From assembly GCA_016933395.1 (NCBI GenBank), contig JAFGBA010000323.1, positions 1 to 35,499 of the forward strand: a stretch of DNA of 35,499 bases, written 5' to 3'. Shown here one piece after another: positions 7,562 through 32,086 of the stretch. The DNA is from Sedimentisphaerales bacterium. Its GTDB lineage: Bacteria > Planctomycetota > Phycisphaerae > Sedimentisphaerales > SM23-30. A program made the position numbers and the translations under genes. Numbering within the stretch: position 1 is the first letter of the stretch; every line of letters starts with the position of its first letter. The notes below the pieces were generated by a model. It did no database searches, was not told the origin of the DNA, and was given only the letters and a program-made list of their open reading frames with translations.

Positions 7562-7595
7562 GCCTGATAAAAACACGTAAAATCCTGGTGCGGCG

Positions 7596-10031: not shown

Positions 10032-11146
10032 AATACAACCGCATCCTTTTGCGCCAGACGGCGATACAGGCTTTCATAGGCGGTGAGCATGGCGCCAAGG
10101 CTGTATTTTTCGCAGGCGCGGGCGCGGGCGGCCTGGGCGAATTTCCGGCGTTGTTGGGCATCCCGGCGCAGGGTGTCAATGGCGACGGCGAGAGCGGCTT
10201 CGTCACCGGGCTCTATGATAACGCCGCAACGACCTGCATCAAGCATTTCCGCGACACTGCCAACACGGGTGGCGATGCAGGGAAGGGCGCAGGCCATGGC
10301 TTCATTGAGGGCGTTGGGGTGCTGTTCGCTGTCACTGGAAAGGATGAAGATATCCAATTGATGAAGAAACGCAGGAATATTTTGCACGCGGCCCGGAAGT
10401 CGGATTCGGTCAGTAAAGTCGAGTTGGCGGGCGAGGTTTTCCAGAATGGGGCGTTCTTCGCCTTCGCCGGCGATACGCACTTCCAGATCAACACCCTGCC
10501 GAACGAGTCGGGCGGCGGCGCGGATAATCAGGGTGTGATTCTTTACCGGTCGAAGGTTGCCGACTGATCCGATGATTAAACGCGAATTTCGCGGAGGTTG
10601 AGGCGCCGGACAAAAAAGATTCATGTCCAGGCCGTTGGGGATTACGGAGGTTTTGTCCGCCGGCCAGTGCCATTGGGAAATCATCAATTGCCGGGACGCC
10701 TCACTAACGGTAAAGAGATGTGTGGCCGACCAAGCGAGAACTTTTGACGCCAGTCGCCTGCGCAGGGGCATGAAGCCCGCTTTGCCCAAACCATGAAAGC
10801 TGAGCAGCAACGGCGGTTTATGTCGCATCAGCCAGCGGGCTGCAACCGTGTCAGGCCAGGCGCCCCAGTTGCGGGCGTGAATGACATCGGGCCGGATACG
10901 ACGAATTAACCGAGCCAGGCGAAATGGCAGTTTTAATTCGTTAGGGCGGGCATGGAACAAGTGTATCTCGGTATCCTTGGGCAATAAATCGGCGATATGA
11001 GATTCCTCTTTCAGGCAGGCAATGGAATGACGCCACCCATCCTTGGTCAGACCGATGATCACCCGCGCCATGGCCAATTCCATACCGCCGGGCCCCAGGC
11101 CGGGTGTGACATGTAAAATATGAAAGGGAGACATCTTTGCCATCAC
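10028..11146 (-). CDS. Glycosyltransferase family 4
   Basis: 372 aa; HVTPGLGPGGMELAMARVI, SVIPNGLDMNLFCP, IGSVGNLRPVKNH, and ILSSDSEQHPNALNEAMACALPCIATRVGSVAEML. Start is GTG at 11146 or ATG at 11143. Confidence 0.92.
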   Translation of the reverse strand: MMAKMSPFHILHVTPGLGPGGMELAMARVIIGLTKDGWRHSIACLKEESHIADLLPKDTEIHLFHARPNELKLPFRLARLIRRIRPDVIHARNWGAWPDTVAARWLMRHKPPLLLSFHGLGKAGFMPLRRRLASKVLAWSATHLFTVSEASRQLMISQWHWPADKTSVIPNGLDMNLFCPAPQPPRNSRLIIGSVGNLRPVKNHTLIIRAAARLVRQGVDLEVRIAGEGEERPILENLARQLDFTDRIRLPGRVQNIPAFLHQLDIFILSSDSEQHPNALNEAMACALPCIATRVGSVAEMLDAGRCGVIIEPGDEAALAVAIDTLRRDAQQRRKFAQAARARACEKYSLGAMLTAYESLYRRLAQKDAVVL

Positions 11147-12504
11147 CGGGACACGTTTCGCTTGGTTTTTTTGGGTTTCATCTTATCGTCAGGGATCGTC
11201 GTTACGACCGGCTTGGCTTCAATAGACATTTCTATATTATCCATCGCCCGCCATAGACACACCGGCAGTAATAAATACCACCAATATGCTTCGAAATATA
11301 CCAGGCTCCCAGTCAAGCCGAAACACAATAAAGATACCAATGAAGCGGCCATGGCGCTACCAAGCCATTGATAGTCACTACGATATTCCAATGGCAAGTT
11401 ATTAGCCCGACGAATGAGCTTGCGGTACATCCACAGCGCATTGAAGATGATAACGAGTAATACGCCAAGACCGATAACACCCAGTTCCCCGCCACAGCGA
11501 ATAAATGTACTATGGGCGTCACGGTTTTCATGTTCGGGACAATAACGACCGATGGCCTGGGTAAAATTCCCGGGACCAACCCCCAAAGGTTCATCTTTAA
11601 TTAACCGAATGCCGGCTTTCCAAATTTCAATGCGTGATTGAGCCGAACTGTCCCGATCTTCGGAAGATCGCAGAATCGTTTTGCTGCGAGCGATAAACTG
11701 AGGATCCATTAAAAAGGTGAAACCAATCAACGCCGCTATCAGGGCGGCAAATATTTTAAGGCGATATTTTCGGGGAACGATTAAAGCAAGAAATATTCCG
11801 CCGCTCGCCAGACCCACCAAAGCCGATCGGCTGCGGCAAAGAACAATCGTATTCAAAGCCAATATCCCGGCTGTGGCGGAAACGATTTTTCCCGGCCATT
11901 TGGATCGGAGAAATTTAACGCCGATTATGGGCATCATCGCCGCCAAATATCCGGCGAGGCGATTTGCTTCACGAAAGTCAGGTCCCCCCACCGTTTCCAA
12001 ACGTCCGGAAACAAACGCTGCGCGCGGCGTATCGAACGCCTCCATGCCGAGAAACAACGCGCCCAAAACCATGGACCAGAGCAATATATTGAGGTTGCGA
12101 TAGTTACAAACAAGATGCGTCATCATCAATAATAAAACGACCATTTTCGTCATTTTAACGGAAGGGTGATCCACCACGGAATACCGCCCCACCGTTTTTC
12201 CACCGATAAAAACACCAAGCCAGACGATGGCGAGGAAAAGGAGAAGTAACTTTTCCTGACCTGTCAACAATGACTTTCCAAACTTCAGTTTGTTCCAATT
12301 AACCAACATGCCAACGGCCGTTAATACCGCAAGGATAAGTGAATAACGTACGCCAAGATCATTAATCGGACTGGCCCACCATTGCCCTTCCGGTCCGATG
12401 TTATAATGGAGCACATAGGCCACTAATCCCCATAAGGGGATAAAAGGAGCAACGGCAAAACTTGCCGCCACTCCCAAAGCAAATATAATCGTTTTAATCG
12501 CCAT
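11143..12504 (-). CDS. O-antigen ligase / Wzy-like polymerase family membrane protein
   Basis: 453 aa, polytopic; central IEIWKAGIRLIKDEPLGVGPGNFTQAIGRYCPEHENRDAHSTFIRCGGELGVIGLGVLLVII, the periplasmic-loop pattern of the O-antigen ligase family. N-terminal region resembles exosortase-associated O-glycosylation ligases. Confidence 0.85.
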   Translation of the reverse strand: MAIKTIIFALGVAASFAVAPFIPLWGLVAYVLHYNIGPEGQWWASPINDLGVRYSLILAVLTAVGMLVNWNKLKFGKSLLTGQEKLLLLFLAIVWLGVFIGGKTVGRYSVVDHPSVKMTKMVVLLLMMTHLVCNYRNLNILLWSMVLGALFLGMEAFDTPRAAFVSGRLETVGGPDFREANRLAGYLAAMMPIIGVKFLRSKWPGKIVSATAGILALNTIVLCRSRSALVGLASGGIFLALIVPRKYRLKIFAALIAALIGFTFLMDPQFIARSKTILRSSEDRDSSAQSRIEIWKAGIRLIKDEPLGVGPGNFTQAIGRYCPEHENRDAHSTFIRCGGELGVIGLGVLLVIIFNALWMYRKLIRRANNLPLEYRSDYQWLGSAMAASLVSLLCFGLTGSLVYFEAYWWYLLLPVCLWRAMDNIEMSIEAKPVVTTIPDDKMKPKKTKRNVSR

Positions 12505-12784: not shown

Positions 12785-14212
12785 ATGTGCTCTAAGACAA
12801 GTCAAATCATACATTCAAAATGGCGAAATCGCTGCCGCGGGAGTCTTGCCGGTATTTATAAATCTCTACGAAACGAGCGGGATTCAGCCTACCTGAGGAC
12901 ATTAAAACAAAGTCGCCATCTTAATATGTCATTCCTGCGTCAACGGCAGTGGGACAAGATGCGGATTTTGCTAAATCACGCTTACCAATCCGTACCCTAT
13001 TATCGCCAACAAATGGACAAGGTGGGATTGAAACCCGATGACATTCGTTGCCGTGAGGATTGGAGTCATTTGCCGTTATTATCGAAAAATGACTTGCGTC
13101 ACCATCTCGAAGAGTTGGTATCGACGGACTATGCGTCGAAACACCTATATCAAACCTCGTCCGGGGGATCGACAGGCGAGCCGGTACGTTTTTATCTGGA
13201 TGAACGACGTCGGCGTATGGCCGGTACGGAAACGCACTGGATACACACCTGGTGCGGCTGGCGCGAGGGTGAGCCTATTGCTCGTTTATGGGGCGCACCG
13301 GAAAAAACCGTACACGTATCCGGAATACGACATTTTTTCCGACGTCTTATCCTGGAGCCTGGTTTTCTTATTGATGCGTATTCTTTAAATCAGGCCACAC
13401 TCAATAATTTTGTCGATGCCTACCGGCGCTGGTCGCCGACGCTGGTCATCGGTTACGCCCAGGCGTTAGGAGAACTGGCGAATTTTCTACTCGAAGAAAA
13501 AATCGAACTGCCTTCCTGCCGAGCGGTGGTATCTTCAGCGGAATTATTGAATCAACACAATGCCGAACTCATCCGACGGGCCTTTAAGGCGCCTTTGATG
13601 GATCGCTATGGTTGCCGCGAAGTCAGCCTGATCGCTTGTCAGTGCCCTCAGGCGCAAAAGGATTACCATATTAACATGTTCCGTATTTTTCTGGAGCTTC
13701 TCGACGATGATAATCAACCGGTCGAGCCCGGAGCATCAGGACGGGTGGTGGTGACCGATTTGGCCAATTTTGGCATGCCTCTGATTCGGTATGATTTGGG
13801 CGACCGAGCGAAGTGGTCTTCATCGCCTGGATGTGTTTGTGGTTGGGATTCAGAACGACTGTCCAATTTGGAGGGACGAACGTGTGATTTTCTATTTCGC
13901 TCCGACGGTACGAAAATCCACGGCCTATATATCAACGTCTTGGTATGGGAGGTTCCTCAAATCGTCCGGTATCGACTTTGTCAGGAGTCATTAGAACAGG
14001 TGGTACTGGACTACATCGAAAACGAACCCGTTCCGGCGGCGAAACTCCTATGGCTGCAAGCGCGTCTGCGCGAAACACTCGGACAACAAATGGATATTAC
14101 TTTAAGAAAAGTGGAAACGCTTCCCAAATCGAAAAGCGGCAAACATCAATATATCGATTGTCACATAGATCCTGCGGAGGCGCCGGCGACGCCTTCGAGG
14201 AAACAGAATTAA
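12785..14212 (+). CDS. CapK/PaaK-like adenylate-forming family protein (second copy, opposite strand)
   Basis: 475 aa; YQTSSGGSTGEPVRFYLDE P-loop, TLVIGYAQALGELANFLL, VVSSAELLN, DRYGCREVSLIACQC, GRVVVTDLANFGMPLIRYDLGD, TLPKSKSGKHQYI. Confidence 0.87.
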   Translation: MCSKTSQIIHSKWRNRCRGSLAGIYKSLRNERDSAYLRTLKQSRHLNMSFLRQRQWDKMRILLNHAYQSVPYYRQQMDKVGLKPDDIRCREDWSHLPLLSKNDLRHHLEELVSTDYASKHLYQTSSGGSTGEPVRFYLDERRRRMAGTETHWIHTWCGWREGEPIARLWGAPEKTVHVSGIRHFFRRLILEPGFLIDAYSLNQATLNNFVDAYRRWSPTLVIGYAQALGELANFLLEEKIELPSCRAVVSSAELLNQHNAELIRRAFKAPLMDRYGCREVSLIACQCPQAQKDYHINMFRIFLELLDDDNQPVEPGASGRVVVTDLANFGMPLIRYDLGDRAKWSSSPGCVCGWDSERLSNLEGRTCDFLFRSDGTKIHGLYINVLVWEVPQIVRYRLCQESLEQVVLDYIENEPVPAAKLLWLQARLRETLGQQMDITLRKVETLPKSKSGKHQYIDCHIDPAEAPATPSRKQN

Positions 14213-15477
14213 TGTAGAAGTTGTTCCAATTCACGCACTTCACAAACCATACGTTCGTGCCAATTCCAAAAGGTTTTAGCAACCTTTTGCTGCGCTGCGC
14301 TTAATGTTCGGCGCAGTTGAGGATCATTACAAAGCTTCAGAAGATGAACGCCCAGTTGTTGGATGTCATCAGGAGGGGCCAGTAGGGCATTACAATCGTG
14401 GCTTAACAGATCAGCGGTGGAACGATCGATAATGGAAACTATCGGCAAACATGCATAAATGGCTTCGTAGAGGGGATTACATCGATTGGTTACATCGTTG
14501 GTAATCATGAAAATATCACAGATATTCATCAATTCCCAAATACGATCATGTTCCATTGCTCCCAGCCAAACGACGTCGGACGCAATGCTTAATTCATCAA
14601 CCATCGCTTTCAAGGCGCTCCGCTCCGGTCCCTCGCCGGCAATCAGTATTTGAGCATTGCCGCCGGCGTTGCGGCACACCTGCAGGGCTTTAAGGATTCG
14701 ATCAATACGTTTCCAATAGCTCAACCGGGAGCAACTGCAAATCCAGATGCTGTCCGGACGAAGGTTATCAGGCGCATTCCGAGCGAACTGCGCCCTGCTT
14801 ATAGCCGGCGGCGCCGACGGCGGATCGACGCCGTTTTGCCAGAAACGGAAACGTTCCGGATTGATGTTGAATTTACGCGCCACCTCATCGCCGCGCGTGC
14901 CGTCGTTGCCCACGATAAGAAGATTGCAGGGAATCCGATACCCCGCCGCCGCGACGGGATATCGCAGGGTAACGAAAGGTTGTTGCATCAAATCGGCCAA
15001 AAATGTGCCATAAAGGCGCGTGACGTTAGGTGCATGAAGTAGTCGCTTAAGAATGTATCCCGCCAGAGCGCTGTTTTGATTATGGGCGTAGATGATATCT
15101 GGCCGTTGTCTCTTTTGGCGGCTCCATCGTAGAACCACAACGGTTATTTCAGCGGTAAACAACAGAAAAACCATCATGTTCAAAATCCAGCGCAGCGGGA
15201 ACCAGAGGTTCTTGCCGCCGCCGATACGGAAACATATTCTGCGAAAGGCTTTCAGGCCGGGCAACCAGCGACATGGAGCCATAATGACGGGATAATCAAT
15301 GTTTAAAGGCGGTTTAATGCGTTCCAACTGAGGACTGAATAATCCATATTGGGGCATAAAAACAGTGATGGTATGTCCGGCGCGACGATGGCCCTTGAGC
15401 GTTTCCGCCAGAGAGGGCATGCCGCCCTTGCCTCGCAAAGGCCATATCGGTAACGCGGATATGTGTAATATATGCAT
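14209..15477 (-). CDS. Glycosyltransferase family 4
   Basis: The ORF extends to 15555, but the likely start is ATG at 15477 (MHILHISALPIWPLRGKGGMPSLAETLKGHRRAGHTITVF). RFWQNGVDPPS, ILIAGEGPERSALK, and DIFMITNDVTNRCNPLYEAIYACLPIVSI support GT-B. Confidence 0.9.
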   Translation of the reverse strand: MHILHISALPIWPLRGKGGMPSLAETLKGHRRAGHTITVFMPQYGLFSPQLERIKPPLNIDYPVIMAPCRWLPGLKAFRRICFRIGGGKNLWFPLRWILNMMVFLLFTAEITVVVLRWSRQKRQRPDIIYAHNQNSALAGYILKRLLHAPNVTRLYGTFLADLMQQPFVTLRYPVAAAGYRIPCNLLIVGNDGTRGDEVARKFNINPERFRFWQNGVDPPSAPPAISRAQFARNAPDNLRPDSIWICSCSRLSYWKRIDRILKALQVCRNAGGNAQILIAGEGPERSALKAMVDELSIASDVVWLGAMEHDRIWELMNICDIFMITNDVTNRCNPLYEAIYACLPIVSIIDRSTADLLSHDCNALLAPPDDIQQLGVHLLKLCNDPQLRRTLSAAQQKVAKTFWNWHERMVCEVRELEQLLH

Positions 15478-15490
15478 GTGAAATTTCCGA

Positions 15491-17293
15491 TTAGTCCGTA
15501 TTGCCGGGAGCATATGCCGCTTTGACGTCGGGAAAATAACGCTCCAGGAATTCAAAAAATACGATAAAGGATAAGTTGAATGGATAACTGATGTAATTTT
15601 TACGCAGGAAAATCATTAACGCATCGCGCAGTAAACGCGGCGCCGCTCGACCGTTGTTGAATAATTGATTATGCCGGATAAAATGCCGCTTCAAATTAAA
15701 CCACCAGAATACTTGTCGCTGATGATGGTAACGGATGTCGTCATGTTCGTATGTTATTTTCGGGAGCGAAGCATAAAGCTGCGCCAGCCGAGGGTAAGCA
15801 CGTTCCACATGGTTTAGGCGCAACTTGTTCTGGATGCGCATTAGCGGCGGCAAGCCCATAACAAAATCGAAAAGGTCGTTATCAAAAAACGGGAAGAAAC
15901 TTTCGGCCTTGAGCGACACCAGTTTTAGGCTCGCCAGAGCTGTCGCCCGGCGCGATCGATTCATCAGATAATAACATCCGAGTTTGTTGGGGGTATGGTC
16001 ATATTTTTCCAATTCCCGCGCAACGGCCTGCACGACGTGGGCACGATGCAAATGGCGGCTGATATCAGGATGCAAGATGGAAAAATCATGCAATTCCGGA
16101 ATAAGCTCTTCCGCAAGATGATCGTTGGTCATGGATAGCGTTTCGGAAAAAACCGCCGCATCAATAAAACGAGAGGCGCGGCGAACGGCATTAAAGGAAA
16201 TATCGCCTCCCAGGCCGTCATAATTAATCAGACCGCCGGGAGGAAGACTTTGCACCAGGGGAAGGATCCATTGATGCATGCGGGTTTCGTTGTCGCATAA
16301 GACCGCCGCTTGAGGAAAACAGGTAGTGGTAAATCCGCGGGAAGGAAGATTTATAAAATGATGTTCCACACCCAGTAGATCGGCCACGGCCCGGGCGCGA
16401 TCGCGGTCGCTATTGTCCAGACTAAAGCCGCGCGTCGTATAGGCGACGAAAGGACAGGCCTGCTTTTTCAGTTCGGCGGCGATTCGACCGGAATCCAGAC
16501 CGCCGCTGAGAAATACGATGGTTTTTGAACCGGATGTCCGTGCTCGGCGACCGATGGCGCGAGCGAACATGCCCGTACACCCTTCAACCGCCTGGGAATA
16601 GGAAACCGATTCATCGATGGGTATACGAGCAATATCCCAATAACGCTTTATAACAACGGTGTTATCCTGAAACGTTAAAATTGACGCCGGGGGCAATAAA
16701 AAGACATTTTCCAAGAATGTGTCTTCGCCGAGGTGATGGCCAAAATGGAGAAACACACTGCACGCCGTCCAATTGAGTTTGCGCGGCGTCCGGGGTGTAG
16801 CCAACAAAGCGCGCAAATCGGAGGCGAACACCAATATATTTTCGGCCTGATTGTGATGATAGTAAATTGGGCGCAAGCCAAAACGATCATTAATAAGCAC
16901 CAATTTCCGTTGTTGTTTTGACCACCACGCCAGAGAAAAAACGCCATTAAGTTTCGGTAGAAGGTCCTTGCGAGACCGGCTTAACAGGCCAAGCATAAAC
17001 TCAACATCATCAGTTAATGAATTAACGTTACATAGGGAGAGTTTATTTGCCAAGTCCGCGTAATCGAATATCTTGCCGCAATAAACAATGGCATTATCGC
17101 CATCGGCGCTGAATAACGGCTGCGGTTTCGTATTAACGGCTCCAAGGCTGAAATGGCCCAGTCCGGCCTGATGATCGTGCCAGACTTCCCGACGGACAAA
17201 GGTATCTTGCCAGGATGCTTCGTACATCCGTCTCAGGGGATCAAGGGGATTGAAATCATCCCGGTTTCCAACAAGTCCGCATATTTTCGTCAT
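15491..17293 (-). CDS. Asparagine synthase-like protein (class II GATase-like N-domain + AsnB-type PP-loop ATPase domain)
   Basis: 600 aa; MTKICGLVGN start, DRFGLRPIYYHHNQAENILVFASDLRALL, and PP-loop TIVFLSGGLDSGRIAAEL. Confidence 0.88.
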   Translation of the reverse strand: MTKICGLVGNRDDFNPLDPLRRMYEASWQDTFVRREVWHDHQAGLGHFSLGAVNTKPQPLFSADGDNAIVYCGKIFDYADLANKLSLCNVNSLTDDVEFMLGLLSRSRKDLLPKLNGVFSLAWWSKQQRKLVLINDRFGLRPIYYHHNQAENILVFASDLRALLATPRTPRKLNWTACSVFLHFGHHLGEDTFLENVFLLPPASILTFQDNTVVIKRYWDIARIPIDESVSYSQAVEGCTGMFARAIGRRARTSGSKTIVFLSGGLDSGRIAAELKKQACPFVAYTTRGFSLDNSDRDRARAVADLLGVEHHFINLPSRGFTTTCFPQAAVLCDNETRMHQWILPLVQSLPPGGLINYDGLGGDISFNAVRRASRFIDAAVFSETLSMTNDHLAEELIPELHDFSILHPDISRHLHRAHVVQAVARELEKYDHTPNKLGCYYLMNRSRRATALASLKLVSLKAESFFPFFDNDLFDFVMGLPPLMRIQNKLRLNHVERAYPRLAQLYASLPKITYEHDDIRYHHQRQVFWWFNLKRHFIRHNQLFNNGRAAPRLLRDALMIFLRKNYISYPFNLSFIVFFEFLERYFPDVKAAYAPGNTD

Positions 17294-17323
17294 CGGGCCA
17301 ATCCTGCTACGGTTTAATAAACG

Positions 17324-19192
17324 TTATTCTTTCCGCTCGGACTTTTGTCGGAGAAACGTCTCGGCGTTCCAGGTGGTCAGTTGCCCCTCCATAATCCAAT
17401 GCCATACCTGCCAGTAAAAAAGTAAATTTCGGGCAATACGTATTTTCCAGTCAAACGGAGGATGCGTTTGTTTGATAGTCATAACGGCACCGGCATTGAG
17501 TTCATTATGATCCGGGTGAACCAACTGGATAACCTGATTAACCAACCGGTTGGCCTCACCTCGCTGCTTTGATCCTGCACCCAGTTTCTGAAAAAACGAT
17601 CCGAAAATAGGTAAACGTCCAAGACGATGCCAGTAATAACTGGTGTGTTTACACAGTCTGCCTGCGCCCTTTAAGGCCCACAGTCGAGGTGTAAATTTAT
17701 TCGGCGTGAAAAACTGTCCGCCGGAACAAAACGGGATGCTCAAGGCTTCAGGGAAATGCTTCTTATATAATTTAAGATGGAGTTGTCTCTGACACGTGAG
17801 TTTTCTTGGAAATTTACCGGCAATATTCCAAAACGTTCTGCTGAAACAAGGAATGAAAGACAAGACATAATTGCCGTATACTTGAACAGGATCCAAGCTA
17901 ACACAACGGCGCAATCGATTATTATCCAGAAATCTGGCTATCCCATATCCATCATTAGGGTAACGGGATAACTCAATATTCAGAAGTTCAGTGTATTTTT
18001 CCCTCATGGCCTCTCCAATGTCGGGGGAAAAGAGGTGCTCAGCGGCCTGCCAATGCAAAGACGTAATCGGCCGAGCTTTCGCCTGTAAAAAATCTTCGAA
18101 CATGTCAAACTGCGGATGACCGGGAGAGAACGCAACGCCGGAACCGCCGCCGTCCCAAATTGCCTTCATTTCCGGTCGTAAATACTGCACCACCTGGGTG
18201 ATGAACAAATTCAAACATGGTACGGCAACTTCGTTCAAAACCAAATAATGCAAAAATACCGGTGATTCATAGTAATGTCGCGATGGTATAACAAGTTGAT
18301 ACTTGCCTTGATTGAATTTTTTGGCCGCCTGCACGGCCAGCCGACCATCAGCGCCAAAATACTCCTCCTGATGCTGAAGCGTCAACGCCTGAACCTCTAA
18401 TCCTTCCTCATGCAGAAGTGTCATGATAAGGCGCGAGTCAAAGCCGCCGCTTAAAAGCGAATAACCGGAATGTGAATGCTGCGTGTATCCCCGAATTTCC
18501 TGCCGGGCTATATCGAGTAGTTCACCGGTATCAATATCATCAAGGGTCATATGAGGGGCTGGTTCGGGCCGGGACCAGTACTTTTTTGTTTCGACGTGGT
18601 TGGTTTCGGCGTCATAGGTGATAATTGTAGCGGCGTTTATCCGTGATACACCTTCCAGTTGGGTATTTTCGCCTATACAATAATCAAAAGACACAAAGGA
18701 ACCCCAGCCGGCGGGATCCATTTTCGTCTTGATGAGTCCACTGGCCGGAAACGCCTTAAGTTCCGAGGCGATGAGAAGGCCTTGGTTGGGCCGGGCGATG
18801 TAGAGCGGCTGAAGCCCGAGTGGGTCGGTAAACACTACGAGTTTTTGTGCAGCAGCGTTCCAAAATACCGCGGCGAACACTCCGTCAAGACTGGCGAGTT
18901 GTTCGATTGCTTGTTTGTAACCTCCTACGATCGCTTGGGCCAAACAGGTGTCCAGACATCCATCGAGTTTGATCGGGACACCTGCGACCGCCAGAATATT
19001 GCCTTCATCACTTTGACGAAAAAGCGAAACTGACGAGGAGCTATCGGACGTGGCTACGTAGGCCAAAGCTCCTTTGCCAAGGACCAGCGTTTTACACTGG
19101 TGGTTGTTCGCCAGACGCATGGACGTCGCCATCGCTTTCACCACGTTTTTAGCATTCAACCTTGCCGGGGCAAAGCATACTGCCAGCTTCAT
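17324..19192 (-). CDS. Asparagine synthase-like protein
   Basis: 622 aa; LDGVFAAVFWNAAAQKLVVFTDPLGLQPLYIARPNQGLLIASELKAF and PP-loop YSLLSGGFDSRLIMTLL. Clearly alignable with 20732..22594. Confidence 0.88.
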   Translation of the reverse strand: MKLAVCFAPARLNAKNVVKAMATSMRLANNHQCKTLVLGKGALAYVATSDSSSSVSLFRQSDEGNILAVAGVPIKLDGCLDTCLAQAIVGGYKQAIEQLASLDGVFAAVFWNAAAQKLVVFTDPLGLQPLYIARPNQGLLIASELKAFPASGLIKTKMDPAGWGSFVSFDYCIGENTQLEGVSRINAATIITYDAETNHVETKKYWSRPEPAPHMTLDDIDTGELLDIARQEIRGYTQHSHSGYSLLSGGFDSRLIMTLLHEEGLEVQALTLQHQEEYFGADGRLAVQAAKKFNQGKYQLVIPSRHYYESPVFLHYLVLNEVAVPCLNLFITQVVQYLRPEMKAIWDGGGSGVAFSPGHPQFDMFEDFLQAKARPITSLHWQAAEHLFSPDIGEAMREKYTELLNIELSRYPNDGYGIARFLDNNRLRRCVSLDPVQVYGNYVLSFIPCFSRTFWNIAGKFPRKLTCQRQLHLKLYKKHFPEALSIPFCSGGQFFTPNKFTPRLWALKGAGRLCKHTSYYWHRLGRLPIFGSFFQKLGAGSKQRGEANRLVNQVIQLVHPDHNELNAGAVMTIKQTHPPFDWKIRIARNLLFYWQVWHWIMEGQLTTWNAETFLRQKSERKE

Positions 19193-20694
19193 CGAATTTT
19201 CCCTTTCGAAAAGGCTTCCAACGAAGAATTATTTTGGGAGCGAACATCTTCATATCGCAAACGTAACTCATGATTGGCCCAATGGAACAACAGGAAATTG
19301 GCTTGGAGTCTTAGAAGGCGTTCCCCGAGATTAGACCATCCTAATCTTTTGGTCAGGTTGGTATATATCATGCTATTGACATAATTACCCTGACGCATTA
19401 TCGCCAGTACCGTATTCGATGGAGCATACAAATTGCGTTCCTTGAGATACGTCCTGAAACCGGCCCTGGCTTGCGGAGAATAGGGCCACAAAAACGGTGT
19501 TTCCAAAGAGGTGTTTTTCTTTCGTTTTCCAAATGCATCCCGGGGAACACCCGCTTCTTCGACGATTCGCCGCGGAACAGGACGATCATAGTCGTTGTAA
19601 AGCGTCCAGGGTTCCATCTCTTGCGAAAAGCTGATATTTTGTACTTCGTTAAAGTGCCTGCGTCCCCAAAACGGCACCGGGCAATTGAAAATACCCTGAA
19701 ACAGGCGAAATTCACTCAATCCCGCCAACCCGGCTGCGGCGCTGGCAAAAGGATCGGGAAGTTGAATACGCCGACGATCCCATACGCCGTCGCCATAAGA
19801 ACCGGTAAACAATAAGCACAGAGGTTCCGGATAATCAAAAAGTGTCCAGTTAAGAACCCCGGCGCGTCCATTGACGGACCAAATCGTTTCCTCTAAAGGA
19901 TATTTTTTCGCCGTGCGGTTACAAGTTTTACAGAAAAGGTTGAGGTGCTGAGCAATATCGGCCCCGGAATCCGATCCTCGCCACAAACTGGATGATTGTT
20001 TGATGGTTACGGAATTGCGGCATTGGGCGTAGCGGGAAATAACCGCCGTTGCCGAAGCGTCATAACCACGAGAAATTGTTGTTAGTGGAACAACCTGATG
20101 CCGGCGTTGAGAATCACGAAGATTTTTGCCGAGTTTCTCCGCCGTGGCGGCGAGAAAATTGTAATAATCAGAAAATGTCAACAAACGTGGCGCGGTATCG
20201 GGCTTTTCTTTTTCTGCCACGTCTCCGTTGTTGTAAGCCAGATTATGAAAATAAGTAAGGTTAATATTCCGGGTGGCGGTAGGCAACGTTCGCACGTAAG
20301 CACTTAACCCTCCGCAGACCGTCATGATATCTTTTGGATAAAAATAATCCTCCCGTAACGTTAGACCGGTAGTTGCCAGAAATCCTCCAAGAGTGTTGGA
20401 TACATATAAGACATCGTCTTGCACACAGTGCCACAAACGATCTTCCATCGTACCTGAAGAAACAAATATTACCTGATTTTCGCGCACTCGAATGCCGGTG
20501 CCGAAAACCAGATCCGTCTGATCAAAATCACCTTCCTGGAAATCGCCCGCCCAAACCGCTTCGCAGCACCATTGCGGCCCGATTTCGACGCAGGGACCAT
20601 GCCTTACGGTGACGGTGTTGTCACCGCGGGCAATACCGGCAACCCAGGCGAGTTTGGGCCAATCAGGGATACATTGGGTTAGTAGTTGCATCAT
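19189..20694 (-). CDS. Divergent asparagine-synthetase-like protein with degraded PP-loop; otherwise uncharacterized
   Basis: 501 aa; N-part VIFVSSGTMEDRLWHCVQDDVLYVSNTLGGFLATTG and central VPLTTISRGYDASATAVISRYAQC, which sits where AsnB proteins have LSGG.DS. Located between AsnB-like genes. Confidence 0.6.
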   Translation of the reverse strand: MMQLLTQCIPDWPKLAWVAGIARGDNTVTVRHGPCVEIGPQWCCEAVWAGDFQEGDFDQTDLVFGTGIRVRENQVIFVSSGTMEDRLWHCVQDDVLYVSNTLGGFLATTGLTLREDYFYPKDIMTVCGGLSAYVRTLPTATRNINLTYFHNLAYNNGDVAEKEKPDTAPRLLTFSDYYNFLAATAEKLGKNLRDSQRRHQVVPLTTISRGYDASATAVISRYAQCRNSVTIKQSSSLWRGSDSGADIAQHLNLFCKTCNRTAKKYPLEETIWSVNGRAGVLNWTLFDYPEPLCLLFTGSYGDGVWDRRRIQLPDPFASAAAGLAGLSEFRLFQGIFNCPVPFWGRRHFNEVQNISFSQEMEPWTLYNDYDRPVPRRIVEEAGVPRDAFGKRKKNTSLETPFLWPYSPQARAGFRTYLKERNLYAPSNTVLAIMRQGNYVNSMIYTNLTKRLGWSNLGERLLRLQANFLLFHWANHELRLRYEDVRSQNNSSLEAFSKGKIR

Positions 20695-20731
20695 TAAAAA
20701 TTATCGCCGTTATGCAGGGTGACTTTTGGCG

Positions 20732-22594
20732 TTACAAACGCCGCCGTGCCAACAGCGTGTCTAGATTTTTCGGTGTAAGTCTTCCTTCCATAATCCACAG
20801 CCACATCTGGCGGTAAAACAACATGCGTCGCGCCAATCGCGTTGACCAGGTGAACGGCGGCGTTTTCTGTTGGAGACAGCGCACCGTATCGGCGTTTAAG
20901 TCCGTGTCGTCCGGGCTTACCTGCCGGATCACCGTATCCAGCAAATCATTCGTCCATTTATTATCAGACGATTTCACGCCCATGCCGCGCAGGACGGAAC
21001 CGATAAGCGGCGTTCGCCCCAGCCGACGTCCATAATATCGGCATTTTCCTAAAGCCTGACCCAATTTTTTCCAGGCCCAAAGGTCAGGCGTGAAGGACCG
21101 GTAACTGAAAAATTTGCTACCCGAACAAAACGGCACGGAACTCGCTTCAGGAAAAAATTCGGCAAATATTTTGAGATAAAGCTGATGGTGAGCCGTTACG
21201 CCGCGCGGTATTTGCGCCGCCAGATTCCACATGGCTTTACTCAGGCACGGTGTAAAGGGCAGCACCCGATTGGCGTATACCATCAGCGGACTTATAGACA
21301 GGCCTCGACGCATCTGGCTGGACATCTGGAATTTCGCCACGCCAAAATCATCGTCGGCGTATTGGCTTATGTCATCGGTGAAAGCCTGGCGAAAATCATC
21401 GTACATCGCCTGTCCCAGGCCGTCGGCGAAGATGGAAAAAATCGTTTGCCAGTGAAGGGAATCCCGATCCTTGCAACGGTCCGCCTGATAAGTCGCAAAA
21501 CCGCCGGGCAGCGGATACGCCGGTGCGAAGGCAAAACCCGGCCCGAGTCCTTCCCAGGCTGATGTCATTGACGACTGAATATGATGCGCCACATGCGGAG
21601 TGATATACAGGTTCATGCTGGGAATGGCGATTTCGTTCATCAACAAAAATTCGAGATAGGATTTGGAGGCATAATAATCACGTTCAGGCGCGACGACCTC
21701 GATCTGACGGCAATTTAACTTTCGGGCGATTCTGCAAGCCAGCCGTGCATCCGCGCCGAAAAGTTGCTCAGGATGGTTCAACACCATCGCCTGGTAATCC
21801 AATTGGGCGCGATTGACGTGCGCCAGGATCAGGCGCGAATCGAAACCACCGCTCATGAGGACGACGCCTTTGCGGCTGTGGGCCGCATAAGCTTCCACCT
21901 CACGTTGCATAACCCGCAGCATTTCGGCTGTATCAACATCAGCCAGTTTCATATCAGGACGCGATTGAGGCCATGACCAGTATCGGGAGGACTCCACCTT
22001 GCCCGTCGCGCCGTCACAGATAAGCACTGTCGCCGGCCCCATGCGCTTTACATCGGCCATTTGTGACAAGTCAGAAATTAGAAAACCCAGCGAGATAAAC
22101 GCTCCCCAGCCGGCCGGATTCATGGTCGGCTTGATTTGCCCCGAAGCGCCGAACGCTTTCAATTCCGTCGCCAAAAGCAGGTTCCCGTTTTGTTGGCTTA
22201 TATGTATGGGTTGGATGCCGAGGGTGTCCGTCACGACCACCAGTTTTTCATGCTGAACATCCCAAAATATCGCCGCGAAGGCGCCATCCAACCGGGTCAG
22301 TAAATCGGCGGCCTGGCGGTAATCCCCCTGAATAATCTTCGTCAGACGCTGGTCTAAATATCCATGCAGGTCGATAGGCACGCCTGTTGCCAGCAACACG
22401 TTGCCGTTATCAGCTTCGCGCAACAATGGTATGGCGGAATGCCGGTCGGACGTCCGCACGCACCCAATCGCGCCGTGAGCGACGGGAAATACCTTTATGT
22501 CCTGATCGTCCAGCAGTTGCTGGGACTGGGCCATCTTGCGCGCTGTTTCGGCAGCGATGGCTTTTTCCAAACCCAGACAAACCGCAATTTTCAT
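20732..22594 (-). CDS. Asparagine synthase-like protein (paralog of 17324..19192)
   Basis: 620 aa; MKIAVCLGLEKAIAAETARKMA, LDGAFAAIFWDVQHEKLVVVTDTLGIQPIHISQQNGNLLLATELKAFG, and PP-loop VVLMSGGFDSRLILAHV. Confidence 0.88.
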   Translation of the reverse strand: MKIAVCLGLEKAIAAETARKMAQSQQLLDDQDIKVFPVAHGAIGCVRTSDRHSAIPLLREADNGNVLLATGVPIDLHGYLDQRLTKIIQGDYRQAADLLTRLDGAFAAIFWDVQHEKLVVVTDTLGIQPIHISQQNGNLLLATELKAFGASGQIKPTMNPAGWGAFISLGFLISDLSQMADVKRMGPATVLICDGATGKVESSRYWSWPQSRPDMKLADVDTAEMLRVMQREVEAYAAHSRKGVVLMSGGFDSRLILAHVNRAQLDYQAMVLNHPEQLFGADARLACRIARKLNCRQIEVVAPERDYYASKSYLEFLLMNEIAIPSMNLYITPHVAHHIQSSMTSAWEGLGPGFAFAPAYPLPGGFATYQADRCKDRDSLHWQTIFSIFADGLGQAMYDDFRQAFTDDISQYADDDFGVAKFQMSSQMRRGLSISPLMVYANRVLPFTPCLSKAMWNLAAQIPRGVTAHHQLYLKIFAEFFPEASSVPFCSGSKFFSYRSFTPDLWAWKKLGQALGKCRYYGRRLGRTPLIGSVLRGMGVKSSDNKWTNDLLDTVIRQVSPDDTDLNADTVRCLQQKTPPFTWSTRLARRMLFYRQMWLWIMEGRLTPKNLDTLLARRRL

Positions 22595-22618: not shown

Positions 22619-24193
22619 TCAAGGCCGAGATAAACCGGATATCTTATTGTACACTTTAGCCATCAGAGACATTAACAAATTCCAGATGCGCTGCCGGTCG
22701 GCGGCGGGAACCAGAATAAACCAGGCAATGGGAACATACCCAAGCAACGCCAATCCCACCTGAGAGAAAAAAAGTATCCAAGACGTAGCTGCAAATAAAT
22801 GTCGGACGCCCAGGCATAAGGCAACGAATAATCCACCCGCCAACACTACGGGACCGCCGACATCTCTGGCAAACCGGGACAGACTCGCGCCTACCTTACG
22901 AAAAGCAACCAACGGCATAATAAACGTCGAAGTGCATAGACGCGCCGCCAATGTACCCGCCGCCACACCCGCCAGTGACCAGTCAAGCAACGTCACGAAA
23001 CTAATTGATAATACCAAATTCACTGTCGCTTCAATAGCCGTCATTTTCGTCGTGAATTTTATATGTCCCATTGCCTGAAGTAAAGACGCCGAAGGCGAAG
23101 TTAAACAAAGTAATAGTTTTGACACCGCCAAAATCCACATTACTGTTGCGGCGTTAGCGACATCCTTTTCGTAAAAGTCGCCGCCGAACATCCACAGGTG
23201 AATAAAAACATAGCCGAACATGATAAATCCGATATATATCGGCAGGCTGAAAATAAACGTAAGTCGAAGCTGACGGTAAAAATACCATCGAGCAGTCCCC
23301 ATCTCCTTTTTCACCACCGCCCGCTGAACCGGAGGGAAAAACGTGGTGTAAATCTGACTGATAAACGTCGTCGTATAATATAACAACATCGCCCCGACGG
23401 AGTAGGTGGATACTTCGCTGACACTAATCAATAACCAGACAATCAACAAATCGGTCTGGCCGATAATTTTAACCGACAGCGACGTTATAAATGCCGGAAT
23501 ACCATATCCGAATAATTCACGCAATCGCTCTTTAATGAAACAAAACGGCCATAATTGTAAACGGGTATAAATCCGCCGCGCCATAATATAATTGGTCGTA
23601 ATGCACAATATATTCGCACTCAGAACCACCAGCGTCAAGCCTATCAATCCGTATCCTTGTTGCAGGACAATGACCGTACCGATGGTGCGAATGATTAGAG
23701 CGCCCAGATCAGCACCTCGAGTAAGATCAAAGCGATCATGCGCGGAAAGCACGCTCGAAAGCACTGCCTGAATTGCGTTAATCCAAAGATTAATTGCCAT
23801 CAACGGCAAGAGTAATCTAAATACGGTGTGATATGCCGGTGGAATACTTTCGGTCATCCGCGGCACATAAATACCTAACACCAAGGCGGTAATAAAGATC
23901 AGAATACCCGCCACAGAATAAAATCCCAGTCCGCAACGAATCGTCTGGTTTACTTTTTCGTGGTCGTTTAATCCTATATAGTAAATGATATATCGGCCCG
24001 TCCCCGCCCGAATACCCATATCCATGATGCTCAAGTGGCCGATCAAGGTATTTACCAGAGTCCAAATGCCGTACACTTCCTTGCCCAGGGTATGCACGAT
24101 AAAGGGAGAAAGGAACGCCATTACCAGCAGATTGGCCCCGAATACAGTCCAATTAGCCAGCAGGTTGCGGGTATAAACACGGGCGGTGTTCAT
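22619..24193 (-). CDS. Polysaccharide flippase (Wzx / oligosaccharide flippase family)
   Basis: 524 aa, about 12-14 hydrophobic segments; starts RNLLANWTVFGANLLVMAFLSPFIVHTLGKEVYGIWTLVNTLIG; LLQAMGHIKFTTKMTAIEATVNLVLSISFV. Confidence 0.9.
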   Translation of the reverse strand: MNTARVYTRNLLANWTVFGANLLVMAFLSPFIVHTLGKEVYGIWTLVNTLIGHLSIMDMGIRAGTGRYIIYYIGLNDHEKVNQTIRCGLGFYSVAGILIFITALVLGIYVPRMTESIPPAYHTVFRLLLPLMAINLWINAIQAVLSSVLSAHDRFDLTRGADLGALIIRTIGTVIVLQQGYGLIGLTLVVLSANILCITTNYIMARRIYTRLQLWPFCFIKERLRELFGYGIPAFITSLSVKIIGQTDLLIVWLLISVSEVSTYSVGAMLLYYTTTFISQIYTTFFPPVQRAVVKKEMGTARWYFYRQLRLTFIFSLPIYIGFIMFGYVFIHLWMFGGDFYEKDVANAATVMWILAVSKLLLCLTSPSASLLQAMGHIKFTTKMTAIEATVNLVLSISFVTLLDWSLAGVAAGTLAARLCTSTFIMPLVAFRKVGASLSRFARDVGGPVVLAGGLFVALCLGVRHLFAATSWILFFSQVGLALLGYVPIAWFILVPAADRQRIWNLLMSLMAKVYNKISGLSRP

Positions 24194-25359
24194 GAAACCT
24201 TTGCCTTTCGCACCGGTGTAGCCGGACGCAATAGCGCCTTAGTAATTTGCTCAAGTTTATCAGGCCAGGTTTCATGGGCCATGGCTTGGCAGCGCCGCTC
24301 CCGGCCGTCCGCATCCTCCGTCAGGCAGGTTTCCAGGGCGGCGATAAATGTCTCTGGCGTATTGGCAATGTGAATCAAATGGTTATATCGCATCACTTCC
24401 GGCATGGGTGTAGAGACCACCGGCAAACCGGCCGCCAGATACTCGCGTAATTTTATGGGGTTGACGGCATGGGTGAGTTGGTTGACCTGAAACGGAATCA
24501 ATCCCACATCAAAATACCGGCAATATCCGGGCAATTCCTGATACGACTTACGCCCCAGAAAGTGCATGTTCGCCAGCCCGCGGTACGGCGCCAAATCGAC
24601 CGTGGAATCGCCCAGCAGCACAAAATGCCAGTCAGGGCATTGTCGGGCGATCTGGGCTAAAAGGTCCACATTTACCCAGTCGCGAATCAATCCGAAAAAT
24701 CCCAACCGGGGATGGGGAATATTAGCCATATCCGCCGGTTCGGCCGGATTTGAATGAACCGCCGTAGCGAAGTGCTCATAATCAACGCCATGCGGGACTA
24801 GCAGAGTATTGGGATTATAAGGTTTTTTTTGCTCCTGGAGCGTTTGGGACGTCGTTACCACCAGATCAGCCCGACGGCACAGGTCTTCCTCGTCACGCAG
24901 CACTTGGGCGGTGTCGTAGCCGGTAAAAGCCGCGTGATCATCGACGCAGTAATACACCACTTTTTCCTCGCCAAATCTCCCTAGTAAATAGGAAATATCA
25001 GGTGTAAACGACCAGAGCTGCACCGGTTTGGACGGCAGCTTCCTAAGTGCCGCCCGCAACTGCGTTAACAACAGCAGTCGATTGAGCTTACGCGCCCATG
25101 TCCGATTCGGCAGGGGAATGACCATGGGGGTCAATACGTACAAATTCTTCCGGGGGTTCGTTAATCCTGCGAATACTTCTTTGAGCTTACGCCGAATATA
25201 CGCCAAATCCGATGAACTAACCGTCGGTGTTCGCGAAGCGTGGTAATTCACCCATAATACGACATTACGCTGGGCCAACAGGTGCATTACGTGATGCTTA
25301 CTGGTGGGCGGAGCGTCATAACCGCTGGCAAAACATAAAATTATCCGGTTTTCAATCAT
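24190..25359 (-). CDS. Glycosyltransferase (GT-B fold, TuaH/GT1-like)
   Basis: The ORF runs to 25440; likely start ATG at 25359 (MIENRIILCFASGYDAPPTSKHHVMHLLAQRNVVLWVNYHASR). PRLGFFGLIRDWVNVDLLAQIARQCPDWHFVLLGDS, VNPIKLREYLAAGLPVVSTPMPEVMRY. Confidence 0.85.
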   Translation of the reverse strand: MIENRIILCFASGYDAPPTSKHHVMHLLAQRNVVLWVNYHASRTPTVSSSDLAYIRRKLKEVFAGLTNPRKNLYVLTPMVIPLPNRTWARKLNRLLLLTQLRAALRKLPSKPVQLWSFTPDISYLLGRFGEEKVVYYCVDDHAAFTGYDTAQVLRDEEDLCRRADLVVTTSQTLQEQKKPYNPNTLLVPHGVDYEHFATAVHSNPAEPADMANIPHPRLGFFGLIRDWVNVDLLAQIARQCPDWHFVLLGDSTVDLAPYRGLANMHFLGRKSYQELPGYCRYFDVGLIPFQVNQLTHAVNPIKLREYLAAGLPVVSTPMPEVMRYNHLIHIANTPETFIAALETCLTEDADGRERRCQAMAHETWPDKLEQITKALLRPATPVRKAKVS

Positions 25360-25406
25360 CTTCGGGAATACTCGGTTTATTGTCCCATCGCCGAGGGAAC
25401 AGGTGA

Positions 25407-27125
25407 TTATTTCGGATCGTGGTAATGAGGCCAGCGCCACGCCATAGCGCCGGGCAGCCCCAGGGCAATACCCGTCACGCCAATCAGGACATCACTGAGG
25501 CGGTTTTGCCTGCCGGCAACACCGCCCTGCATCTTTTCCAATATAAAGGCGGCCGCTATGCAAATCGCCAAGGACAACAGCACCACCCAAAGGCGTCGCC
25601 GCAACACCGTCGATAAGGCCAATGAAACCAACACCATCATTAACGCCATTGCGGGCATGTGCAGGATGTTTTGCATTTCCGGAGTGAGTCCCGAATTCCA
25701 AATCCCGAAATAAGGAAGATATTGCCCTTCATGGAATTTATTAACCTTGACCAGCACAAACATATACGCCAACGCCAATACCCATATTGGCGCAGCAATA
25801 TACCATTTGATGCGGGCGCGCTGCGGAAACATGGGTAAAACCGCAGGTTGTTTTGTGCCGGCTCTGGATGGATGAGCACATCGCCGCTTATCCATCTTTT
25901 TATCTGCGGTCGGCGCAGTGGCGGAAACAGTTTGCTCCTGAACATCGGTTAGTTGCTTGCACAACTCCACCAGCGGCGCAACTCGCGCCGACCAGGCGTA
26001 ATGTTCCACCACACATTGCCGCGATTGTTCGGCTATTGCCGCGCGGTATGCTTCATCGTCGAATAACTGACCGAGTCGGCTTTGCCATTGTTCCGGCGTA
26101 TCCGCTTGCAGTACATCTTTACCCGGTTGTGTTTCCAAACCCTCCAGCGCCGGGCCGGAAGCAACCACCGGTAAACCCATCGCCATCGCTTCCAACACCT
26201 TGTTTTGAATCCCACGAGCAATACGCAGCGGGCATACAGCCGCCATAGCGGTTCTTAAATACGGCCGCACGTCCGGCACGGAGCCGGTCACTTTTACGCC
26301 CGGCGCGTGTTCCAGCCGCTTCACCGCCCGGCTCGGATTACGCCCCACGATAGTAAACGTCGCTTCAGGATATTGTTTCCTTAGTTCGGGCCAAATTTCA
26401 TTCACGAACCAACATACCCCGTCGATATTCGGTTCATAATCCATCGTTCCCGTAAACACCAGGGATCCTTTAACGGATTGCGTTGAGCGGCTAGGCTGAA
26501 AATAATCCACATCCACCCCGTTGCTTAATGCGTGAACCTTGCCCGGATATACGCCAAGCACCTGACTTTCCGCCTCGCTCACCAATAATACCGCGTTGCA
26601 GTGGACGATGGCGTCTTCTTCCAACTGCCGAACCAATCGGGCTTCGCGCTGGTATAGCCACCGTTTGGGCCATCCGGCTTTTTCCGCATAGGACGACCAT
26701 TTGGCGCTATCAACATCCACCAGATCCATTATTCGCGGACAATGCCCTGCATGACGTAAATAGTGCACCATTGCCGACGAAGACGCCATCACCAAATCGA
26801 AAGGTTTGCGCTTCGCTTCCTTCTCAATGAGCTTTGCCAGACACGCGCTGTGGAAATGCCGTTCTGTTACGGATGTGCCCGTCATTAAAGCCGCAAGCCC
26901 CCCGCGCACTCGCCCTTTGCGCCCGTCCGCCGGAGCCAGTAGTACATGTTTGCACCATCGACGCATTAATTGAGCGGCGTCCTCATCACGCGAATCGTGC
27001 ACCGGCGTCGCCAGGGTAATATGATAATGCTCCGCCAGCGCTCGAATTTGATTATACGCGCGGACACGCTCCCCCTTGTCGGGAGGAAAGGGCACACGAT
27101 GCGTGATGAACAGTAAACGTTTCAA
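25407..27125 (-). CDS. TIGR03087-type (PEP-CTERM/XrtA system) glycosyltransferase fused to a C-terminal VanZ-like membrane domain
   Basis: 572 aa; MKRLLFITHRVPFPPDKGERVRAYNQIRALAEHYHITLATPV...DLVDVDSAKWSSYAEKAGWPKRWLYQREARLVRQLEE is characteristic of TIGR03087. The C-terminal ~140 aa is multi-TM with EKMQGGVAGRQNRLSDVLIGVTGIALG (VanZ-like E..Q...R...D....G..G pattern). Confidence 0.85.
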   Translation of the reverse strand: MKRLLFITHRVPFPPDKGERVRAYNQIRALAEHYHITLATPVHDSRDEDAAQLMRRWCKHVLLAPADGRKGRVRGGLAALMTGTSVTERHFHSACLAKLIEKEAKRKPFDLVMASSSAMVHYLRHAGHCPRIMDLVDVDSAKWSSYAEKAGWPKRWLYQREARLVRQLEEDAIVHCNAVLLVSEAESQVLGVYPGKVHALSNGVDVDYFQPSRSTQSVKGSLVFTGTMDYEPNIDGVCWFVNEIWPELRKQYPEATFTIVGRNPSRAVKRLEHAPGVKVTGSVPDVRPYLRTAMAAVCPLRIARGIQNKVLEAMAMGLPVVASGPALEGLETQPGKDVLQADTPEQWQSRLGQLFDDEAYRAAIAEQSRQCVVEHYAWSARVAPLVELCKQLTDVQEQTVSATAPTADKKMDKRRCAHPSRAGTKQPAVLPMFPQRARIKWYIAAPIWVLALAYMFVLVKVNKFHEGQYLPYFGIWNSGLTPEMQNILHMPAMALMMVLVSLALSTVLRRRLWVVLLSLAICIAAAFILEKMQGGVAGRQNRLSDVLIGVTGIALGLPGAMAWRWPHYHDPK

Positions 27126-27144
27126 AGCGACTTTTTGTGATCCC

Positions 27145-28011
27145 TCACAAATAATAGTCGAAATACCGGGGAACGTAACTCTTTTGATGGGTCAAAAAGA
27201 TGCCGGCAATATTAACGTCCGCCGATTGTAATAAACCCACCGCCCGTTCGATGGATTCCCGATGCGTTTTATTCATGCGAATCACCAGCAGCGCATCACC
27301 GGTCACGCGGCCGAGAATACTCGCGTCCGATGCGGATCCCACCGGCGGCGTATCCACCAGAATAATATCGTATTTTCGCTGCAAGTCCTGAAGCAGTTTG
27401 CTTGAGGACAACCGGCTGATAACTTCACCGATTTCGTGTTTTTTCGCTCCGCCCGCCGATATGGCGTCCAAATTCGAGCACTGTGTGGGCTGCAAAGCCT
27501 CATTTAATCGCGACGGATCCCGCAGCACCTCCGCCAGTCCCGGACTGGCATCCAGCCCCAACATCGTCGTCAGCCGATCTTTGCGCAGATCGCCGTCAAT
27601 CACCAATACTCTGGTGTCCGGCAATTCCGTCATTACAAAAGCCAGATTCAGCGTTGTGACGGTTTTTCCCTCGTTGGCTTCCGCTGAAGTGATTATCATA
27701 CATACTTGTTGTTTTTTCGCGCGCGCCAAAATATTCGTCCGCAAGCTGCGATATTGCTCCGTGAGAATACACCCCGGGTCATTATAAGCCACGAGATCTG
27801 AACTGTATTTCTTGACTTTATTGGACGAAAACGACGTGTTTTCCGAAGAAGATTCCTGGGATGATACGGCTTCCACGTTCTCTGTTTCCGCCGACAGTGC
27901 CGCCGCTTTCGTCACGGGTGTTTCCGCCGGACCGGCTGTCTGGGGCGCAGAGGCGCCTTTTTGCTGCTGCTCAGCTTGTTGTTTTTTAAAGGCGTCACTG
28001 ATATTGCCCAT
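27145..28011 (-). CDS. CpsD/CapB-like polysaccharide biosynthesis tyrosine-protein kinase (BY-kinase) family
   Basis: 288 aa; TEQYRSLRTNILA, Walker A-like ITSAEANEGKTVTTLNLA, Walker A' VLVIDGDLRKDRL, IILVDTPPVGSASDA, and Tyr-rich tail YVPRYFDYYL. Confidence 0.9.
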   Translation of the reverse strand: MGNISDAFKKQQAEQQQKGASAPQTAGPAETPVTKAAALSAETENVEAVSSQESSSENTSFSSNKVKKYSSDLVAYNDPGCILTEQYRSLRTNILARAKKQQVCMIITSAEANEGKTVTTLNLAFVMTELPDTRVLVIDGDLRKDRLTTMLGLDASPGLAEVLRDPSRLNEALQPTQCSNLDAISAGGAKKHEIGEVISRLSSSKLLQDLQRKYDIILVDTPPVGSASDASILGRVTGDALLVIRMNKTHRESIERAVGLLQSADVNIAGIFLTHQKSYVPRYFDYYL

Positions 28012-28028
28012 ACCGGTCTCCTGAAAAT

Positions 28029-28886: not shown

Positions 28887-28896
28887 TAAAATTTAC

Positions 28897-30600: not shown

Positions 30601-30609
30601 ACCACCTTT

Positions 30610-32006: not shown

Positions 32007-32086
32007 ATGTAGTATGAAATCACCCCCTTTATATCGTAATTTTGCCTTTGGATAATGTAATTGTCTGTATCACCGGAGGCAGAGCT

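Follow-up and report, generated by a model that had tools for sequence, protein, structure and literature searches.

AsnB-like ligase genes lacking the glutaminase cysteine in a planctomycete exopolysaccharide locus: a conserved core gene and a proposed role in amide formation

The 35,499-nucleotide stretch of DNA analysed here, hereafter the window, is contig C36 (JAFGBA010000323.1) of a planctomycete, Sedimentisphaerales bacterium, whose 3.37-Mb genome is 70% complete and divided among 384 contigs. Its exopolysaccharide locus contains four adjacent minus-strand genes related to asparagine synthetase B (AsnB), which we label A (15491-17293), B (17324-19192), C (19189-20694) and D (20732-22594). 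The reading that we favour, with hesitation, is that the four encode glutaminase-less, ATP-dependent ligases of AsnB fold belonging to one type of Wzx/Wzy locus, in which C would be the core, D and A add-ons and B a local duplicate of D, and that they would form amides in the cytosol before the sugar precursor is flipped. An earlier note, drawn from the DNA letters, had described four consecutive AsnB-type genes, and all four open reading frames are present exactly as it placed them. The spacers are short (about 30 bp between A and B, 37 bp between C and D, and a 4-bp overlap of B and C), and the genes form one operon-like stretch inside a minus-strand block that runs from a Poly_export gene (31461) through a glycosyltransferase gene (14209).

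Family membership and active-site residues

Profile searches assign A, B and D to the AsnB superfamily, with its two-domain architecture of an amidotransferase-like domain and a PP-loop synthetase domain. In the Pfam search, A (600 amino acids) matches both PF13537 (3.7e-23) and PF00733 (4.5e-14), and B (622 amino acids) and D (620 amino acids), paralogues that are 43% identical, match PF13537 (1.6e-10 and 5.2e-10) with no PF00733 match. Several AsnB-family NCBIfam models extend across the PP-loop of B and D, the best reaching 1.2e-20 and 2.3e-20, far below their curated cut-offs. The AsnB model TIGR01536 has a cut-off of 267.1 and yields 143.8 for A, 70.9 for B, 73.1 for D and no match for C. 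The best PDB sequence match of both A and D is TsnB9 (7YLZ), a hydroxyamidotransferase of low identity from which the window genes differ by their polysaccharide context. A model of D, submitted to Foldseek, matches TsnB9, beta-lactam synthetase and AsnB.

Gene C (501 amino acids) matches no Pfam or NCBIfam family, and its profile retrieved nothing relevant from the PDB sequences even at an E-value of 10. An AlphaFold model built from eight C sequences (pLDDT 79, pTM 0.84) finds beta-lactam synthetase as its best Foldseek match (E 1.1e-12), followed by carbapenam synthetase and asparagine synthetase; these alignments cover both domains, with TM-scores of 0.4-0.5. As modelled, C is an AsnB-fold protein. 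The AsnB-type architecture proposed by the earlier note for all four products is thus supported by profiles for A, B and D, and by the AlphaFold model only for C, and the note's expectation of relatives that make amides other than asparagine agrees with the nearest solved folds of the C and D models. An alignment of 12 C sequences contains an S-x-G-Y-D loop in every member (SRGYDA in the window), a GD magnesium motif in 11, and a strongly conserved Y-x-RP-x-x-RR...F...K stretch; C also has a lysine at the presumed lysine position. The C family, which has no name, is invisible to the profile libraries searched. Distant C homologues (about 30-33% identity), used for alignment only, occur in three planctomycete genomes (L036, L037 and L038), outside any recognisable polysaccharide locus.

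The four proteins share the loss of Cys2: they start MTKICGL (A), MKLAVCF (B), MMQLLTQ (C) and MKIAVCL (D), and the AsnB-like proteins on related planctomycete contigs mostly start MCGI. An alignment of A, B and D to E. coli AsnB, distant and at very low identity, shows other residues in each of them at the positions of R49, N74 and E76 (mature numbering) and retention of D98 in A only; C does not align over this region. Since Cys2 is missing and glutamine-binding residues are lost, these are not ordinary glutamine amidotransferases; judged by sequence, A-D appear to have lost the extraction of ammonia from glutamine. Three PP-loops are intact, as the earlier note had observed (SGGLDS in A, SGGFDS in B and D), with the variants SGGQDS in the A orthologue of locus L034 and SSGFDS in the D relative of locus L059. 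Gene A also retains the second magnesium aspartate in its G-x-x-G-D motif (GLGGD), and a lysine occupies the catalytic lysine position in A and in its orthologue from genome G007, the L034 sequence being cut before that site. In D and B, a glycine replaces the second magnesium aspartate (D351-equivalent), and their lysine position is ambiguous in the alignment. As for the Tyr-Glu catalytic dyad of beta-lactam synthetases, the G-x-G-x-D region of A and of D has no tyrosine where one would be expected and that of C is variable, in an alignment too distant for this position.

These losses bear on a comparison with WbpS (PGN_1234), an AsnB-like protein of Porphyromonas gingivalis that turns the glucuronic acid of its sugar into glucuronamide in the Wbp pathway (PMC7468200). 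In both cases an AsnB-like gene of a polysaccharide pathway adjoins a wzx gene (porS for WbpS), but the window has several divergent genes without Cys2 and the glutamine-site residues. The genes could still encode WbpS-like sugar amidotransferases, dependent on glutamine or ammonia, that make uronamides from uronic acids, A being the subunit that carries the glutaminase: the precedent itself, the invariant M[TS]KICGL start of A with its cysteine at position 5, its D98 position, and a UDP-sugar dehydrogenase encoded in the genome all speak for this. Nevertheless, we consider it improbable, as position 2 of A is not a cysteine, the R49, N74 and E76 positions are lost, the dehydrogenase gene lies on another contig, and a single amidation would hardly call for three or four divergent genes. 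The same losses argue against simple uronamide formation, which the earlier note had entertained, and the window revealed no recognisable uronic-acid enzyme.

A phylogeny of 39 rows provides a further test of identity. A groups with its orthologues from L023 and L034 (100/99), and B groups with D and three relatives (100/100). A separate group of 28 AsnB sequences (100/99) includes E. coli AsnB and an ordinary MCGI-type AsnB encoded on contig C197, the one PF00733 protein found elsewhere in this genome. C was left out as too divergent, the tree gives no resolution between A and the B/D clade, and long branches make the deep joins unsafe. Neither A nor B nor D falls within the clade of canonical MCGI-type AsnB proteins, in line with the earlier note's view that they are not housekeeping paralogues; on the tree and the separate AsnB gene we reject that explanation. 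A degenerating, functionless array would fit the lineage-specific duplications and the remnants of D and A found on a Deferrisomatales contig, but not the well-supported clades, nor the open frames and motifs conserved across phyla. Housekeeping origin or decay is largely refuted, and we regard it as very improbable.

A conserved core and its add-ons

Recurrence of the neighbourhood, about which the earlier note had asked, is seen both in a second planctomycete genus and outside the phylum. A first contig scan with D returned no relative; a second, with the C alignment, returned three loci. In G007, another genus of the same family, locus L023 reads Wzx, D, C, C2, A, ATP-grasp-like, GNAT-like and deacetylase-like. 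In the Desulfuromonadales genome C00003068, the order is ATP-grasp, deacetylase, PaaK-like, TIGR03790-like, D-aminopeptidase, Wzx, D, C and A, on two contigs (L049 and L034) whose ends divide D between them. In the Deferrisomatales genome C14-16 (L035 and L050), Wzx precedes an internally deleted remnant of D, C in intact form, a remnant of A and a glycosyltransferase of the window type; beyond these come another AsnB-like gene, Wzy, a second D of full length and one more AsnB-like gene. Locus L059 has D, Wzx, C, the window-type glycosyltransferase and Wzy, and Wzx, C and Wzy, but neither D nor A, are present in loci L060 and L061. The relatives of window genes that stand beside C in these loci (Wzx, Wzy, several glycosyltransferases, ATP-grasp, deacetylase and PaaK2) mostly score 350-680 bits. 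Much of the surrounding locus is therefore common to different phyla, and the same gene order in another genus and in other phyla is more than chance would give.

A few features of these loci stand apart. In L035 (4611-7031), D and A are fragments around an intact C, either because the genes have truly decayed or because the assembly collapsed there. In Desulfuromonadia loci, a TIGR03790-like protein is accompanied by an M55 D-aminopeptidase: L049 (2931-5966), where the families were tested, and L059 and L061, where the N-termini are similar. A 519-residue protein between Wzx and C in L059 was considered as a hidden AsnB relative and rejected, having no PP-loop motif and no family match.

Larger genome sets were also sampled. 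C was found in 5 of 392 sampled Planctomycetota genomes (this one, three with distant matches outside such loci, and one with a contig-end fragment) and additionally in G007; it was found in 5 of 277 Desulfuromonadia genomes and in 3 of 257 in a sample around the Deferrisomatales genome. High-scoring D occurs in three of the 277 Desulfuromonadia genomes, two with C and the third running into the end of its contig, and among the 392 Planctomycetota in this genome only. A reaches a high score in a single Desulfuromonadia genome of the 277 (847.6 bits; next best 159.9), with D and C adjacent. The occurrence is nested, a pattern that rests on small numbers of loci: whole-genome searches found C alone in two Desulfuromonadia genomes and C with D in one, and the full set of C, D and A exists in the window, the other planctomycete genus and the Desulfuromonadales genome, with D and A reduced to remnants in the Deferrisomatales genome. 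The fourth gene is a lineage-specific duplicate in each case, B (of D) in the window and C2 (of C) in G007.

The conserved unit is thus C with optional D and A, and the number four is incidental. The earlier note's suggestion of a conserved set of four does not hold, and an obligate four-subunit machine is made unlikely by the occurrence of C without D and A. Because C is kept in such genomes it should work alone, unless genome incompleteness hides the other two. A looser association can be imagined, namely a mixed heteromer in which A and/or C is the enzyme and D and B are dimerising pseudoenzymes acting as scaffold or regulator. The missing magnesium aspartate in D and B, in an otherwise preserved fold, is what one would expect, and D accompanies C in every genome whose contig permits checking, adjacent or within about 4 kb. 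Against this, two genomes carry C by itself and most D members have an intact PP-loop, which a pure scaffold would not need; we judge such a heteromer unlikely.

The surrounding locus and its exosortase context

The flanking genes, all on the minus strand unless noted otherwise, are those of polysaccharide synthesis and export. A Wzx-like flippase gene (22619-24193) lies directly upstream of D, as it does in L023, L049 and L035. Directly downstream of A is a glycosyltransferase gene (14209-15474; listed from 15555, with a likely start near 15474), with an orthologue beside C in L059 and another beside the A remnant of L035. A Wzy/O-antigen-ligase-like gene (11143-12504; PF04932) and a glycosyltransferase gene (10028-11146; synteny with L050 and L061) are kept in related loci, and the next glycosyltransferase (8859-10031) has an orthologue in L060. 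There follow an ATP-grasp ligase-like gene (7596-8837; PF15632/PF02655), a polysaccharide-deacetylase-like gene (6539-7783) and a gene for a PaaK-like adenylating ligase (5126-6523; NCBIfam PaaK-type models below cut-off), an order also found in L049. The PaaK-like protein has orthologues in L049, L059 and L061. The deacetylase-like assignment is weak (PF01522 at 22.0 bits against a cut-off of 23.1, its L049 relative being barely above), and the true start of this gene probably lies farther downstream.

Upstream of the flippase, 24190-31461 comprises Poly_export, Wzz/TIGR03007-like, AAA ATPase, tyrosine autokinase, TIGR03087 glycosyltransferase and glycosyltransferase genes. The TIGR03087 cut-off is passed in the window (439.5 against 316.65), whereas the scores of TIGR03018, TIGR03007 and TIGR03097, the last in the Wzy-like protein, all fall below theirs. 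The TIGR03087-family protein (25407-27125) has a VanZ-like C-terminal domain; in L023, a separate reading frame (192-782) at the corresponding place matches the protein. A second PaaK-like ligase gene (12785-14212) on the plus strand breaks the minus-strand block and overlaps the glycosyltransferase gene end by 4 bp. Also on the plus strand, a DUF362 protein with an N-terminal membrane segment is encoded at 4061-5122; an N-terminus of DUF362 appearance, judged by eye, likewise lies near C in L062. An Rfam search of the window gave zero matches.

The exosortase association proposed by the earlier note holds at the level of the genome: the window encodes a PEP-CTERM protein (34454-35497, minus strand; C-terminal VPEP...GGYIRKRRMA; TIGR02595 at 19.3 against a cut-off of 16), and two exosortases are encoded on other contigs, one of them on C68, where the best match in the genome to a UDP-sugar dehydrogenase is also located. 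Within the window itself, no gene for an exosortase was found. The locus is exosortase-related. AsnB-like genes beside exosortase genes have been noted before, and a link with exosortase loci has been suggested (PMC7468200). The window genes resemble the XrtA/PEP-CTERM amidotransferase family TIGR03108 in belonging to the AsnB family, in their exopolysaccharide context and in residing in an exosortase-bearing genome. Membership in that family, which the earlier note had raised, is not borne out: with a cut-off of 816.9, A reaches 125 and B and D come to about 64, and C has no match. Beside the exopolysaccharide block lie two adjacent plus-strand genes for FeeM-type N-acyl amino acid synthases (32042-33079 and 33188-34153), as reported for planctomycete stieleriacine loci (PMC7293339).

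Proposed role in amide formation

The closest parallel comes from beta-lactam and carbapenam synthetases (1JGT/1MC1 and 1Q15), which share with A-D the two-domain AsnB fold and an amidotransferase-like domain without the glutaminase cysteine, and which are the best structural match of C and a near-best match of D. They differ in identity (about 14%), in belonging to antibiotic rather than polysaccharide loci, in the absence of several copies side by side, and in having SGGxDS where C has SxGYD. A lost glutaminase site with a kept ATP site is the beta-lactam synthetase pattern and, by analogy, would imply adenylation of a carboxylate followed by attack of an amine. The lasso peptide isopeptide cyclase is another AsnB-type ligase that uses an amine of its substrate; the window genes remain distant from it, the best score with NF033535 being 119.3 (A) against a cut-off of 525, and no precursor peptide was noticed, though no search aimed at one was made.

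Under the reading we favour, the AsnB-fold ligases would act in the cytosol on a sugar precursor, before Wzx flipping. Hydropathy reveals no signal or membrane segment in A, C, D or the ATP-grasp, deacetylase and PaaK-like proteins, and for this reason we place their action before Wzx; B has one marginal hydrophobic stretch of 19 residues. C and A, both of which retain the ATP, magnesium and catalytic-lysine residues, would be active ligases. At least these two would adenylate a carboxylate and join it to an amine other than glutamine-derived ammonia, producing an amide decoration. The deacetylase could expose an amine on the sugar, and the acid or amino-acid part could come from the PaaK-like and ATP-grasp enzymes. 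D and B, with the ATP loop but not the second magnesium aspartate, may be altered or accessory.

Several considerations weigh against this reading. The sequences, the fold matches of the models, the residue losses, the synteny and the nested distribution are observed, whereas catalysis and nucleophile are inferred for A-D, and substrate, product and activity are predicted at most. The lysine and magnesium assignments were made on sequences aligned at very low identity, those for C having been taken by eye instead of from structural superposition, and the model of D is of poor quality (pLDDT 63.5). The PP-loop of C has one glycine fewer than SGGxDS and may be weak or inactive, and D and B lack the second magnesium aspartate. 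Finally, Cys5 of A could become N-terminal after removal of a propeptide, and loss of the glutaminase site is also compatible with the use of free ammonia.

Literature searches that paired AsnB-like enzymes with uronic acids, with capsules, with exosortases and with Planctomycetes led to the WbpS paper, and none turned up an account of such a gene set. A bolder proposal, which we think possible though doubtful, is that C founds an SxGYD family of AsnB-fold ligases that installs a new amide-linked substituent on an exopolysaccharide common to several phyla, with D and A adding further amide-forming steps in a modular, glutamine-free ligase line. The series C, C with D, and C with D and A offers a natural set in which each gene could be matched to the group that it adds. 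Glutamine amidotransferases or FemAB-type transferases are usually held responsible for decorating polysaccharides with amides. A conserved set of glutaminase-less AsnB-fold ligases in polysaccharide loci would constitute another route.

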